Source: Synechococcus sp. PCC 7502
Lineage (GTDB): Bacteria; Cyanobacteriota; Cyanobacteriia; Pseudanabaenales; Pseudanabaenaceae
DNA length: 64,000 nt
Assembly (NCBI RefSeq): GCF_000317085.1
Contig: NC_019702.1
Location: forward strand, 402,394 to 466,393
Direction: 5' to 3'
A program made the translations under genes and the position numbers. Under the pieces are notes generated by a model. That model did not search any database and was not told where the DNA came from. It worked only from the letters and a program-made list of their open reading frames with translations. Shown piece after piece: positions 2,689-29,104 of this stretch; within the stretch, counting starts at the first letter, position 1; each line of letters opens with the position of its first letter.

Positions 2689-4296
2689 ATGACCATAATT
2701 CAAGTTCTGCCCAGTGAAGTAGTAAATTTAATTGCGGCGGGGGAAGTAATTGATTCGTTGGGAGCAGTGGTTAGGGAGTTAGTGGAAAATGCGATCGATG
2801 CCCAAGCTACACGCATTTACATTACGGTTTGGACTGAAAGTTTAAGTATTCAAGTTAGGGATAATGGGCATGGGATGAGCCCAGGTGATTTAGAGCAAGC
2901 TGCCACCGCCCACACTACCAGTAAAATTCATACTAAATCTGACTTACGCCAAATTCAAAGCTTAGGCTTTAGGGGTGAGGCTTTACATAGTCTGGCACAG
3001 CTATCCGATTTACAGATATGTAGTCGAGTTTCCGAACTAGAGGCGGGTTGGCAAGTAAGTTATGACAGCTTTGGTAATGCTATTGCTTCTAAAAATATTG
3101 CGATCGCCCTCGGCACCATTGTGACAGCCCGTCATATTTTCCAGAATCATCCCGCTCGCTTAGATGGCTTACCTAGTATTTCTCAACAGTTACGCAAACT
3201 TCAATTACTCGTCTCAGAAATGGCGATCGCCCATCCCCAGATCACATGGCAAGCTACCCTAGATCAAAAACACTGGTTCACGATTTGGGCGGGAGCAAAT
3301 GCTCAGGATATTTTGCCGCAGGTTGTGAAGTCTATCCGTGCCGAGGATTTAGTGCATGGTAGCGCAGGAGATACAACTATCACGATGGGCTTACCCAATC
3401 GCACCTCTCGCCACCGTCCAGACTGGGTAAGAGTGGCAATTAATGGCAGATTTATTCAGATTCCTGAACTAGAACAAACTATTATCTCGGCTTTTAGTCG
3501 CACTCTACCCCGCCACCGCTATCCAGTATGTATTGCCCATTTATGGGTTAATCCAAGCAAAATTGATTGGAACCGTAGCCCTGCTAAAAATGAGGTGTAT
3601 TTACATGACCTTAAGGATTGGCAAGATCAAGTTACTAATTTAATTACTAAACTCCTCAAATCTCCTGAACCAAGGGTATCTGCGGCGGTAAATCAACTGC
3701 TGCGCACGGCTGAAAGTAATACCAACTATCAGGCTAATGTTTCCCATACCTCTCAACTTAAGGTTTTGGCACAGGTACATAACACCTATATTTTGGCAGA
3801 GCGCTCAAGTGGTCTATGTTTGATTGAACAACATGTTGCCCATGAACGGGTACTATTTGAAAATTTAGAAACTCAGTGGGAAATCATACCCCTTGCATCC
3901 GCCATGATTGTTAAAAACCTATCGGATTTGGCAGTAGAAAGGCTAAGAGCTATTGGCATAGATATAGAAGAATTTGGAACGGTGTGGGTGGTGCGATCGC
4001 TGCCAAAGATTTTAATTGAGTCTTTTCCAGATATAGATAATCAATCAGGCGATCGGGAAGAAGTATTAATTGAATTAGGCTCGCAGGATATATCCCAAGC
4101 TAAAGCCACAGCTGCCTGCCGTAGTGCCATCCGCAATGGTACCAGCCTTGATTTGCCAGTCATGCAAGACCTTGTAAATAAATGGGAGCAAACTCGTAAT
4201 CCCCATACCTGCCCCCACGGTCGCCCAATTTGTTTGGCTTTAGAGTCTACCGATCTAGCTCGATTCTTTCGGCGTAACTGGATCGTGGGGAACTAA
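2689..4296 (+). CDS. mutL: DNA mismatch repair protein MutL
   Basis: A 535-residue GHKL ATPase that couples MutS mismatch recognition to strand removal. N-terminal ATPase motifs are visible: ELVENAIDA, DNGHGM, TSKI and GFRGEAL within the first 105 residues. The C-terminal domain keeps variants of the endonuclease signatures: EQHVAHERVLFE (usual form DQHA-x2-E-x4-E), ACRSAIRNG and CPHGRP, so a metal-dependent nicking activity is plausible, in line with the absence of MutH in cyanobacteria. The linker between domains is short. An AGGAGG lies 3 bases before the ATG, closer than ideal. The gene is divergent from ccmK3. Confidence 0.95.
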   Translation: MTIIQVLPSEVVNLIAAGEVIDSLGAVVRELVENAIDAQATRIYITVWTESLSIQVRDNGHGMSPGDLEQAATAHTTSKIHTKSDLRQIQSLGFRGEALHSLAQLSDLQICSRVSELEAGWQVSYDSFGNAIASKNIAIALGTIVTARHIFQNHPARLDGLPSISQQLRKLQLLVSEMAIAHPQITWQATLDQKHWFTIWAGANAQDILPQVVKSIRAEDLVHGSAGDTTITMGLPNRTSRHRPDWVRVAINGRFIQIPELEQTIISAFSRTLPRHRYPVCIAHLWVNPSKIDWNRSPAKNEVYLHDLKDWQDQVTNLITKLLKSPEPRVSAAVNQLLRTAESNTNYQANVSHTSQLKVLAQVHNTYILAERSSGLCLIEQHVAHERVLFENLETQWEIIPLASAMIVKNLSDLAVERLRAIGIDIEEFGTVWVVRSLPKILIESFPDIDNQSGDREEVLIELGSQDISQAKATAACRSAIRNGTSLDLPVMQDLVNKWEQTRNPHTCPHGRPICLALESTDLARFFRRNWIVGN

Positions 4297-24367: not shown

Positions 24368-24932
24368 AGTAAAAATAAAGATCACAGACTAATCAATTTA
24401 CTATTTCTTGAGACTAAATGGTTATATAAATCACACTAATTAGCGGAACTAGAACAACTGACTATCGGGATTTTTATAAATCATTTTTGGGTTTTGGATC
24501 ATAAAGCTACTTTGCTATGGCTTTGCTAGGCGGCAGATTGACATTTTTGGCTAAACCAACAACTTGTAATAGCCAGATCGACCACCAAGTAATATCAACT
24601 TCCCACCACCGCCAACCACATTTCGCCACTTGGGGATAAGCATGATGGTTATTGTGCCATCCCTCTCCGTAGGTAAGTAGGGCTGCCCACCAGAGATTAC
24701 GGGAATTATCATTACTGGCAAAGGATTTGTATCCCCACATGTGGGTAACTGAGTTGATCAGCCAAGTGGTATGCCAAAGGAGTACGACTCGCACAAATAC
24801 TCCATAGATAATAAACGACCATCCACCCATGAGGTAAAGTAAGCCAGCTAAGGGAATTTGCAAAGCTAAAAAGTAACGATTGAGCCAACGGTAATAGGGA
24901 TCACGATCTAGGTCTGGGGCAGAACGTTTATA

Positions 24933-25822
24933 GAGCCTGTTTCATATCTATTATGAGCAAGATTTATGATGCTTAGAAAATGCTAAATCCATACTCAAGT
25001 AGCCTAACAGATAAAGAATGGGAAATTATAGAACCATTGCTCCCAAAGAAAAAGCAAACTAGACCGCCAACTTGGACAAAAAGACAAATTTTAGACGGCA
25101 TACTCTACCAACTCAAAAACGGTTGTAATTGGCGAGATATGCCCCGAGACTTACCACCATTCTCTACAGTGTATCGATACTACAAGGAGTGGAAAGATAC
25201 AGGTACATTTACTGCGATTATGGAAGCTTTGCATTCAACAGCCCGTGAACAGTCAAAAAAAATCAAAATGGACAACTTTAATCATCATTGACTCACAAGC
25301 AGTGAAAAATACCTGTAATGCAAGTATAGAATCCAAGGGCTTCTGCTCCTACAAAGCAACTAACGGGATCAAAAGACATTTAGCCGTTGACACTCTGGGT
25401 ATTTAACAAGAGCAAATGTATCAGATGACCAAGGACTGATTGAGATGTTAACGTTTAACATTGATTACTTCAAATCGAAGCCAGATGACATTACCCTAAC
25501 TACGATATTGCTGGATAGTGGTTATCATATCGAAAAATTGACGACTGATTTACAGAAGGTTTATCCTGAGATTATGACTAAGATTAGGTTTGAAATTTCT
25601 CCTAAGGTATCAAAGCAACAGAAGGCAGAAAAAGGTCTGTCTGGGTTTGTAGTTGTGCCGACAAGGTGGGTAATTGAAAGGTCAAATGCTTGGGTTGAAA
25701 GATGCAAAATCTTAGTTAAGAACTTTGAGAGAACTCTCGTTAATGCTACAGCTAAACTCAATCTTTGCTTTATTCGTTTGATGCTAAAAAGAATTGCTAC
25801 TCATGAGATATGAAACAGGCTC
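24933..25822 (+). mobile_element. IS5-family insertion sequence, copy B
   Basis: An 890-bp element interrupting the desaturase gene. The termini are perfect inverted repeats (GAGCCTGTTTCATATCT and its complement) flanked by TATA at 24929-24932 and 25823-25826. It is almost identical to copy A in the opposite orientation, but lacks 17 bases around 25401 (after CTCTGGG), which destroys the transposase frame. Only a few substitutions separate the two copies, so transposition was recent. Confidence 0.95.
24980..25813 (+). pseudogene. IS5-family transposase, copy B (17-bp deletion)
   Basis: The N-terminal frame (24980-25291) equals copy A except for one Ala to Ser change. The second frame carries IIIDSQAVK and is reached at the same A8 run, but it ends in TAA just after CTGGGT because 17 bases present in copy A are missing. 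The third frame (to 25813) carries LLDSGYH and RWVIERSNAWVERCK. The product cannot be made whole by a single slip, so this copy probably moved with transposase supplied in trans or lost the bases after insertion. Confidence 0.88.
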
Positions 25823-26260
25823 TATATTGATCGTATTTAAAGAACTCATCGTGGGGGTAAAAAATCCACATCATGTGACTCCACCAAAAGCCTTTACTTG
25901 CCGCATAGGGGTCTTTAACCGCATCTTCAGTAAAGGCATGATGGGAACGATGTCCCGACACCCAAAAAATGGGACCGCCTTGCAATGAAAGTGCGCCGAG
26001 GGTAGCAATTATATATTCCAACCACTGGGGTACTCGTAAACTGCGATGGCTAAGTAAGCGGTGATAGCCCAAACAGACACCAATGCTGCCAAATAGCCAA
26101 TGAAGACAGATCATTACGCCCAAGGCTGACCAAGAGAAAAACCAAGGTGCTAGTAATGCCAAGATATGAATGGCAGAGAAAAAGATGACGGCTGACCAAT
26201 CAAGAGATGGCGGTTTTTCAGGTTCAGTTCGGAATAGAAAGGATTTCATAGGTAATTAAA

Positions 26261-27331
26261 TTAATGAACTTGTCCACGTTGAGCTTCAGCATCTATAGGA
26301 TTGATTAAATACACCCTGAGAATTTGCCAGAAAATGCCAAGGAATATGGGTAACTTTTGCAGAGTTTTGATGATCTGGGGGCGATCGCTATGCTCAATAG
26401 CTAGAAGTTGGAAATTATAGTCAGAGCATTTTTCTAAGTGGAGGAAAAAGTCGGGATGACTGGTATCTAAAACCGCAGGAAAAGCACTAATGGCAGTATT
26501 GTTAGTATTAACTATGACTTCTTTGTTATAGGCACGGGCATCTAAACCAATGGAAGTATAAAAATCCGCACGCTCAAATACAGTCAGGGTATGGGTGGCA
26601 AATACAGTTAATAAGAAGAATCTTGACCATAGTTTCGCTTTCCAGTTGTTCCAGAGTTGGGGCTGAGATCGCAATAGTACTTTAAAGAAATCTCCATGAC
26701 GATTTTCATCTTGACACCAACTTTCAAAGTAGCGAAAGAGAGGGTAAAACTGATGCTCGGGATGCCTCTGCATGTGGTAATGCACTAAAATATATCGCCA
26801 GTAACCAATTTTTTCCGATAGGTAAACAGAATAGATGACCCATTCAGGTTTAAAGAAGGTATAGCTACGGTTTTTGGTCATATTCACTAAATCTAGGGAC
26901 AGATTAAAATCCTTCATAGATTTATTTAAAAACCCCGCATGACGAGCTTCATCCCTTGCCATCAGATTAAAAGCCTCTGCTAAAAGTGGACTACGATTGC
27001 CTAGCTGCCGTGATAGTTCTTTAAATAGTAAAAATCCTGAAAATTCCGAAGTGCAAGAGCGTTCTAGGAAATCAATAAAAGCAGCACGGGTTTTACTGTC
27101 AATATGTTCCCAAGATTTTTCAAACTCCTCGTCTCTTTTAAAGTGATGGCGATTGTAGTCGGTGCGAAGTTCTTGGACAACTGCTTCTAGTTCTACCTGT
27201 TGGGATGATATATCCATTTGAGCTACAGCATCATAGTCCGTAGTATAGAATCGTGGCGTTAATAGGGTTTCTTTAACTGGAACTTTAACCCCTGCACGGA
27301 GGAGTTCTGAGTCTGATTGAGTTGTTACCAT
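26261..27331 (-). CDS. acsF: Mg-protoporphyrin IX monomethyl ester oxidative cyclase, low-oxygen type
   Basis: A 356-residue di-iron ferritin-like protein forming the chlorophyll E ring. The metal ligands are in RDEARHAGF and CQDENRHGDF, with an upstream LERSCTSEFSGFLLFKEL helix. Its position beside ho2, hemN and a ChlR-like regulator identifies it as the second, low-oxygen isoform (ChlAII/AcsFII), by analogy with the Synechocystis and Synechococcus clusters. A constitutive paralogue is expected elsewhere. The desaturase follows after 11 bases. The 5' leader carries a short AATTCTAAAAA direct repeat and lacks a clear ribosome binding site. Confidence 0.93.
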   Translation of the reverse strand: MVTTQSDSELLRAGVKVPVKETLLTPRFYTTDYDAVAQMDISSQQVELEAVVQELRTDYNRHHFKRDEEFEKSWEHIDSKTRAAFIDFLERSCTSEFSGFLLFKELSRQLGNRSPLLAEAFNLMARDEARHAGFLNKSMKDFNLSLDLVNMTKNRSYTFFKPEWVIYSVYLSEKIGYWRYILVHYHMQRHPEHQFYPLFRYFESWCQDENRHGDFFKVLLRSQPQLWNNWKAKLWSRFFLLTVFATHTLTVFERADFYTSIGLDARAYNKEVIVNTNNTAISAFPAVLDTSHPDFFLHLEKCSDYNFQLLAIEHSDRPQIIKTLQKLPIFLGIFWQILRVYLINPIDAEAQRGQVH

Positions 27332-27396: not shown

Positions 27397-27512
27397 TTAG
27401 ATGCTTTTTTGAAAAAACCGAATCATTTTCTGATCTTCGCCTTTGATATGGTGAGTTAACCAATCGGTGAGAAATTGGATAATGTCAGTGGTAATTTCAG
27501 CTTGGCGATCGC
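27397..27512 (-). pseudogene. Probable 3' fragment of a bacteriohemerythrin gene
   Basis: A frame different from the hemN frame encodes about 38 residues ending at TAA (27399-27397), including FLTDWLTHHIKGEDQKM and a short tail. The pattern L-x-x-W-L-x-x-H-I-x-x-x-D resembles the last helix of bacteriohemerythrins, where the His and Asp ligand the di-iron site. The 5' part of such a gene is absent; the fragment begins at the HIP1 octamer (27505-27512) where the hemN similarity ends. Identification rests on a short motif. Confidence 0.5.
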
Positions 27513-27647
27513 TCCTCGAAAATCCCTCTGATCAAAATCTGTACTTAGTTCTGTGGCAGGTGGATAACTGGTATAGCGTGGCACGGGCTGATTATATTTA
27601 TGCAATAAATTAAGATCAAATTTAACTGCTTGGGATAAGGTACTCAT
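27456..27647 (-). pseudogene. hemN: hemN remnant (5' end only)
   Basis: This 63-codon frame starts like oxygen-independent coproporphyrinogen III oxidase: KFDLNLLHKYNQPVPRYTSYPPATELSTDFDQRDFRGAIA. Similarity then stops, before the radical-SAM CxxxCxxC motif, so it cannot be catalytic. The remaining 15 codons are out of frame with the hemerythrin-like sequence. A ribosome binding site (TAGGAATGG) still precedes the ATG. Loss of about 400 codons occurred precisely around GCGATCGC at 27505-27512. Confidence 0.85.
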
Positions 27648-27817: not shown

Positions 27818-28564
27818 TCATGCCACTACTTGCCCGTAGTGTTGTTTATGATGATGTTCCGTACTGCCTTGCCGCTCTTGCTTGGTAATTAGCTCAAATA
27901 CATGACTACCGATCGCTGCCCTTACATCTGCCTCTAGTTCATCCACTACATTACGGTTAAGAGTAAAAGCATAATTGGCTTCAGCAATAATTCTCTGGAT
28001 GGTCGCTTCATCCAAAGCTAGGGAATCCAATGCTTGGCGATAGGTTTCTTTAAATGCTCGTTTTGCTTCAATTGTCGGTAGTTGATCAAATTCGTATAAG
28101 GCAGTACCGCGATCGCTGGGTAAATCCAAAGCAGAACGAACGATTCCTTTTAATGCTTGTCCTCCTGATAAATCCCCCATATAGCGAGTGTAGGCATGGG
28201 CAATTAAACATACAGGATCTGTCTTAGAAATTTCACGGATGCGATCGACATAAACCTTGCCTGCCTTGAGGGGAGTAATTTCTGCCCGCCAGTTATCTCC
28301 ATAATAGAAGGTCAGATCCTGCTCTAAACTTTGCTGGCGATTTAGTTCGGGGAAATATAACTTGCCAACAATGGGATGCTGAATATGTAGCCGTAACTCT
28401 TCTTCGATCGCACTATAAACCAAATAAAGATTTGCCAGTAATTTACGAAATGGTTCCCGTTCTACAATCCCCTTGAGAAAGCACTTCATAAATGCAGTAT
28501 TTTCGGCAGCAGTGTGAGATTTTTCTGTACCTTCTCGCAGTTTAGTGGCTAAGTTACTATTCAT
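27818..28564 (-). CDS. ho2: Heme oxygenase (HO2-type, low oxygen)
   Basis: A 248-residue heme oxygenase opening heme to biliverdin IX-alpha for phycobilin synthesis. LREGTEKSHTAAENTAFMKCFLKG contains the proximal heme histidine; YTRYMGDLSGGQALK is the distal-helix glycine motif. The start is the ATG at 28564, which has AGAGGA 6 bases upstream; a longer frame back to 28642 would run across its own promoter and adds a non-family prefix. The company of acsFII, hemN and a MerR regulator marks it as the micro-oxic isoform HO2 rather than HO1. Confidence 0.93.
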   Translation of the reverse strand: MNSNLATKLREGTEKSHTAAENTAFMKCFLKGIVEREPFRKLLANLYLVYSAIEEELRLHIQHPIVGKLYFPELNRQQSLEQDLTFYYGDNWRAEITPLKAGKVYVDRIREISKTDPVCLIAHAYTRYMGDLSGGQALKGIVRSALDLPSDRGTALYEFDQLPTIEAKRAFKETYRQALDSLALDEATIQRIIAEANYAFTLNRNVVDELEADVRAAIGSHVFELITKQERQGSTEHHHKQHYGQVVA

Positions 28565-28637
28565 AAATTCCTCTGAAAATTCTCTAAAAATTAGGTTTAT
28601 TAAGCTGTATGACAAGATAAATACGCCCCCAATCAAT

Positions 28638-28669
28638 TTCATAATTGCTTGAGAGTATCAAGTTATCAA
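28638..28669 (-). promoter_or_regulatory. Candidate MerR/ChlR-controlled ho2 promoter
   Basis: On the minus strand TTGATA (28669-28664) and TATGAA (28643-28638) are 20 bases apart, and the spacer contains the dyad CTTGA-TACTC-TCAAG. An overlong spacer with a palindromic operator inside is the known architecture of MerR-activated promoters. It begins 34 bases after the chlR stop codon and leaves a leader of about 67 bases before ho2. Confidence 0.65.
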
Positions 28670-28702: not shown

Positions 28703-29104
28703 TTACTTATCTAACCAGCAATGTGAGCAATCCTCTTTTAAGCTAATAATGCCTTGATCGCATTGCTCAATTAAAGGAACAAGTTCATCATGAAGTGCCT
28801 GTAGCTGCGTAATTGTTTTCTGAATATGTTCGACTTTTGCTTTCAGGCGATCGCGAACGTTATAGCAACAATCCATGCCATCCCTTTGTTTTAGCGCAAG
28901 AATTTCCCCAATTTCTTCCAATGTTAATCCTAAGGACTTAGCACGAGCAATGAAAGTGAGTCTTTCCAAATCTTGATCGGCATAGAGTCGATACCCTGAT
29001 TCAGAACGATTTGGTGATGGAATCAACCCAATACGCTCATAGAAATAGAGAGTTTGGGGATTTACACCTAATTTGCGTGAGACTTCACTTACTTGCAGCA
29101 TCAT
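28703..29104 (-). CDS. chlR: MerR-family regulator, ChlR-like
   Basis: A 133-residue MerR regulator. The N-terminal winged helix (LQVSEVSRKLGVNPQTLYFYERIGLIPSPNRSESGYRLYADQDLERLTFI) and the dimer helix (EEIGEILALKQRD...KAKVEHIQKTITQLQALHDELVPLI) are clear. Cysteines at C85-C86 (DCCYN), in EQCDQ and in the terminal CSHC could bind an iron-sulfur cluster or metal, suiting oxygen sensing. By family knowledge ChlR activates acsFII-ho2-hemN at low oxygen, and this gene leads exactly that set on the same strand. It may start at either of two adjacent ATGs. Confidence 0.8.
   Translation of the reverse strand: MMLQVSEVSRKLGVNPQTLYFYERIGLIPSPNRSESGYRLYADQDLERLTFIARAKSLGLTLEEIGEILALKQRDGMDCCYNVRDRLKAKVEHIQKTITQLQALHDELVPLIEQCDQGIISLKEDCSHCWLDK

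Follow-up and report, generated by a model that had tools for sequence, protein, structure and literature searches.

A clean deletion scar at a HIP1 octamer joins the start of hemN to the end of a bacteriohemerythrin gene in Synechococcus sp. PCC 7502

In the window, by which the whole analysed stretch of 64,000 nucleotides from Synechococcus sp. PCC 7502 is meant, the remnants of two genes lie between a heme oxygenase gene, preceded by the gene of a regulator, and a cyclase gene, which is followed by a fatty-acid desaturase gene (Table 1). One remnant is the start of hemN, the gene of the oxygen-independent coproporphyrinogen III oxidase of heme synthesis. The other is the end of a gene for a bacteriohemerythrin, an oxygen-binding protein, and the two meet at the octamer GCGATCGC, known as HIP1 and common in cyanobacteria. 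HemN is a radical SAM enzyme with an oxygen-labile 4Fe-4S cluster.

Table 1. Features of the locus, with positions in the window.
Feature	Positions	Strand	Evidence
MerR-family regulator, upstream of HO2	28703..29104	-	PF13411, PF09278
HO2-type heme oxygenase, intact, upstream neighbour	27818..28642	-	PF01126, E=5e-79
hemN remnant, codons 1-48 (MSTLSQAV...DFRGAIA)	27504..27647	-	TIGR00538 positions 2-40, E=5e-12
HIP1 octamer GCGATCGC, deletion junction	27505..27512	.	Switch of parent; octamers in relatives
Hemerythrin tail, last 37 codons and TAA (27399-27397)	27397..27510	-	NF033749 positions 98-129 of 129, E=2e-7
acsF2/chlAII-type Mg-protoporphyrin monomethyl ester cyclase, intact, downstream	26261..27331	-	TIGR02029, E=2e-149
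desF/desC-type fatty-acid desaturase, split by an IS	24507..26249	-	PF00487 on C-terminal half; N-terminal half matches weakly

The genes acsF2, ho2 and hemN are clustered in 17 relatives as they are, with hemN as a remnant, in the window. The heme oxygenase is 68-80% identical to the one that adjoins hemN in relatives, and the MerR gene lies next to HO2 in G018 and G028 as well. The ATG listed for HO2 is about 25-28 codons upstream of the point where most relatives start aligning, and in many relatives this segment is interrupted by stops; the real start is therefore probably further downstream. A second cyclase copy, 55% identical to acsF2, is present elsewhere in the genome. The desaturase gene adjoins acsF2, in the place that desF takes in the Synechococcus 7002 cluster (PMC4500134), and is interrupted at about 24930-25826 by an IS with a DDE_Tnp_1 transposase and the inverted repeats AGAGCCTGTTTCATATCT. 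The genome contains about 40 near-identical copies of this IS, one of which scored 100% identical, so its expansion is recent.

Identity between the hemN remnant and the HemN starts of relatives reaches 92%. The remnant covers the profile only from position 2 to 40 of 454, and a full-length match and the radical SAM cysteine motif are absent. Past the remnant, the hemN frame runs on through 15 junk codons, giving an ORF of 63 amino acids that ends at 27456. The tail peptide, DRQAEITTDIIQFLTDWLTHHIKGEDQKMIRFFQKSI up to its stop, is read in a different frame. It was also matched by TIGR02481 (E=3e-6) in the profile search, and its identity to the intact hemerythrins that relatives encode between hemN and acsF2 reaches 85%. 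The tail retains the last HxxxxD iron-ligand motif and occupies 32 of the 129 positions of the model, so that the full four-helix domain with all its iron ligands is absent, whereas the intact hemerythrin of one relative (L062) spans the whole domain (NF033749, E=4e-37). From its upstream stop to the tail, this frame contains no ATG, GTG or TTG, and the tail is therefore not translated as a hemerythrin.

The point at which one gene gives way to the other was located by DNA alignment with 18-19 relatives. The left arm, that is, the 132 bases before the octamer, scored 62-98 against hemN and 7-12 against hemerythrin, while the right arm, the 102 bases after it, scored 40-63 against hemerythrin and 6-10 against hemN. 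One octamer is kept at the junction, no other base was gained or lost, both sites are in exact register, and an inspection of the junction for an IS relic or for inserted or missing bases revealed none. These alignments show directly which two genes are the parents, how the two sites are in register and that a single octamer was kept, and the gene-deletion scar is real and clean.

The undeleted arrangement is found in 17 Pseudanabaena-type genomes, where the order is HO2, hemN, in some an NrdG-like gene, hemerythrin and acsF2. The relatives compared include P. biceps PCC 7429, P. mucicola FACHB-723, P. cinerea FACHB-1277, Pseudanabaena sp. lw0831, Pseudanabaena sp. SR411 and UBA1465. Their hemN encodes about 466-467 amino acids and their hemerythrin gene about 140. 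The octamer was found at hemN codons 46-48 in 12 of 19 relatives and at the R-D-R codons near the hemerythrin end in 12 of 18; both octamers stand at the required positions in eight of the 17 relatives that have both genes. The distance from octamer to octamer is 1574-1766 bp where the NrdG-like gene is missing and 2214-2608 bp where it is present. Genomes with both octamers occur in both sub-clades of the sister group in the tree, and the double octamer is therefore plausibly the ancestral state of the present lineage as well, as judged from these sister genomes. In the sole genome of the same genus (G001, 85% complete), hemN, the tail and the second heme oxygenase all failed to find a match.

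The arrangement varies among relatives. About half of them carry the NrdG-like radical SAM gene between hemN and hemerythrin (for instance L067:3305-3943 and L073:3358-3951), and the rest lack it. A different operon arrangement was seen in G008, on a short contig (L064:1-3926), with genes for a desaturase, a radical SAM-like protein, an NrdG-like protein, hemerythrin and AcsF2, while hemN and HO2 are absent.

Taken together, it is very likely that a single deletion between two HIP1 copies in an operon of the order HO2, hemN, hemerythrin and acsF2 explains the scar. The octamers at hemN codons 46-48 and at the hemerythrin R-D-R codons would have acted as 8-bp direct repeats, and the intervening DNA would have been lost together with one octamer, about 1.6 kb, or about 2.2-2.6 kb in the case of an ancestor with the NrdG-like gene. 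The route was probably RecA-independent slippage or single-strand annealing. Robinson 1997, a paper cited in both PMC4390886 and PMC6331805, states in its title that the excision frequency at HIP1 is similar in E. coli and Synechococcus, which favours a generic short-repeat mechanism. We infer this mechanism, with HIP1 acting merely as a short repeat. An assembly error is improbable as an explanation, a repeat of 8 bp being far too short to make an assembly collapse. The initial annotation had proposed the same deletion, having recognised hemN for about 48 codons up to the octamer, and the profile match and the switch of the arms bear this out. It had also read a hemerythrin C-terminus in another frame up to a TAA; the family and the frame are right, with hemerythrin models matching the tail and HemN not. 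The relatives agree with the proposed ancestor in that intact hemN is followed by intact hemerythrin, with the octamer in each at the predicted codons.

The age of the event can be estimated from the remnants themselves. The hemN remnant differs from G034 with a dN of 0.05 and a dS of 0.64. Over the relatives, the dS of hemN is at least 0.57 and that of the tail mostly saturated, with dN values for the remnants of 0.03-0.22. As dN is far below dS in both remnants, both genes were under purifying selection until recently, and the deletion is recent. Neither a second hemN nor another matching hemerythrin is present in the genome (99.9% complete, three contigs). A HemN-like hit of 32% was considered as a second hemN and rejected, as this protein of 404 amino acids starts almost at the radical SAM motif and looks like HemW. 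HemF is intact and still covers the coproporphyrinogen oxidase step, in an oxygen-dependent manner. The 63-amino-acid ORF that the deletion left is dead, and hemN and hemerythrin were lost together, probably under relaxed selection for microoxic growth.

The same operon was found to have been damaged elsewhere. G026 and G030 share two further deletions in it (L192:3100-3110 and 4165-4172; L193 likewise), one of which leads from HO2 codon 209 to hemN codon 191 and the other from hemerythrin codon 71 to acsF2 codon 211; the microhomology at these junctions is 0-1 bp, and HIP1 is absent from them. The operon thus falls apart independently in two lineages. In Synechococcus 7002, a desF mutant is conditionally lethal in microoxic conditions (PMC4500134). 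With the deletion from hemN to hemerythrin and the desaturase gene broken by the IS, the low-oxygen arm of the present genome is decaying at two points. The genome of the Synechococcus/Pseudanabaenococcus PCC 7502 lineage was reported to be significantly reduced (PMC12961181).

Several other explanations of the scar were considered. The DNA past the octamer could be frameshifted hemN that resembles hemerythrin by chance: KLKLPLTLSNF is weakly similar to the HemN segment LQKTPLSLYAH, and a HemN query aligns to residue 59. However, the DNA of the right arm aligns with hemerythrin for about 100 bases and shows no match to hemN, and profiles and synteny likewise indicate hemerythrin; the DNA alignment refutes this reading, which has next to no chance of being correct. 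Another suggestion is that a small protein with a function is encoded by the fused ORF or by the tail, as the ORF is open and dN is low in both halves. Against this, the hemN frame closes with the 15 junk codons and is without the cysteine motif of radical SAM enzymes, a start codon is missing from the tail frame, and the low dN is accounted for by selection before the deletion, which makes a function extremely unlikely. It is also very unlikely that two or more successive events, such as an IS insertion and a separate deletion, made the junction, with the octamer secondary or coincidental. The many copies of the IS, including the one in the adjacent desaturase gene, and the two deletions that the operon underwent in another lineage would be compatible with such a history, but the junction has no inserted or missing base and no IS relic, and its two sites are in exact register.

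How much the octamer itself contributed must be weighed against its abundance. There are 81 copies of GCGATCGC in the window, one per 790 bp, against 0.23 expected, so that an octamer at the junction is no evidence on its own. What goes beyond chance is that both arms switch parent exactly at the octamer and that relatives carry the octamer at both homologous positions. The probability that random breakpoints would give a junction of HIP1 with HIP1 is 5e-5 to 1e-4, which means that the octamer mattered. Among the repeat pairs of at least 8 bp in the interval from hemN to hemerythrin, HIP1 makes up 12-17 of 34-42 in relatives without the extra gene, compared with about 10% generally when 100-kb stretches of relatives are taken. 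HIP1 would therefore be a frequent target of a generic short-repeat process. Other repeat pairs, some of them longer at 10-12 bp, are also present in the same interval of relatives and were not used by the deletion, a point against the explanation favoured here.

This bears on a further explanation, in which a HIP1-specific recombination or nicking activity, linked to a methyltransferase or to repair, cuts at the octamer and rejoins two sites. The junction is indeed exactly one octamer, site-specific plasmid recombination at HIP1 was described for Synechococcus PCC 7002 (Akiyama 1998, as cited in PMC4390886), and an inversion in S. elongatus adjoins HIP1 copies (PMC9239245). On the other hand, HIP1 already accounts for about a third of the repeat pairs in the interval, the two deletions of G026 and G030 did without it, and, in line with the published view, excision is similarly frequent in E. 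coli by the title of Robinson 1997. A survey of 400-kb stretches of G014, G021 and G025, which amounts mostly to a comparison of G014 with G021, G025 being poorly syntenic with both over 400 kb, yielded 29 clean simple indels, 28 of them distinct, and none lay at HIP1. One indel of 1554 bp with the HIP1-like junction CGATCGCC was dropped after inspection, as it proved to be a repeat array. HIP1 thus stands at one of three junctions in the operon and at none of 28 distinct indels in the three relatives, a small sample with no sign of specificity. A HIP1-specific activity is improbable as the cause of the scar, and so, to the same degree, is the wider proposal that HIP1 sites are truly prone to recombination in Pseudanabaenaceae, where HIP1-directed deletion removes whole neighbouring genes and the scar is one product. 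The present counts suggest instead that HIP1 acts merely as a frequent short repeat. The initial annotation remarked that a HIP1 recombination site is rarely caught so directly. Its observation and its reading stand on all points that could be tested, with two provisos: a precedent exists in the smt deletion discussed below, and the data give HIP1 no demonstrated role beyond that of an 8-bp direct repeat.

In Pseudanabaena, a bacteriohemerythrin is regularly part of the low-oxygen heme/chlorophyll operon, and no description of a link between hemerythrin and such an operon was found in the literature searched. In the relatives, the protein probably protects enzymes of the operon or supplies those that handle oxygen, an example being HemN with its labile cluster. 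From its place beside hemN, and in some relatives beside a second radical SAM gene, it can reasonably be taken to shield these enzymes in an oxygen-evolving cell, or else to provide a local oxygen supply for HO2 and AcsF2. In Campylobacter jejuni, the bacteriohemerythrins HerA and HerB protect 4Fe-4S enzymes from oxygen (PMC4257069). The likeness lies in the same protein family standing beside oxygen-labile Fe-S chemistry; unlike HerA and HerB, however, the cyanobacterial protein is assigned its role from gene neighbourhood alone.

The cluster resembles the low-oxygen tetrapyrrole cluster chlAII(acsFII)-ho2-hemN(-desF) of Synechocystis 6803, Synechococcus 7002 and Leptolyngbya boryana (PMC4500134) in that the same enzymes are clustered, with a desaturase next door. 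It differs in its gene order, which is HO2, hemN, hemerythrin, acsF2 and desaturase, and in its content, with a bacteriohemerythrin, and in some relatives the NrdG-like radical SAM gene, inside the cluster. The adjacent regulator is of the MerR type here, whereas that of the known cluster is the MarR-type ChlR.

The nearest known event is the deletion between HIP1 copies at the metallothionein locus smt in cadmium-tolerant Synechococcus PCC 6301 (Gupta et al. 1993, Mol Microbiol 7:189, as cited in PMC6331805). That deletion, too, involved HIP1 octamers within the coding DNA of a cyanobacterial genome, but it concerned one locus in a cadmium-tolerant culture line, while in the present case two different neighbouring genes were joined in a sequenced genome and the event was reconstructed from relatives. 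This kind of event has been known since 1993, and the value of the present case lies in its cleanness and its operon context. With both parents still readable in relatives, it is a useful case for the old question of whether HIP1 promotes recombination.
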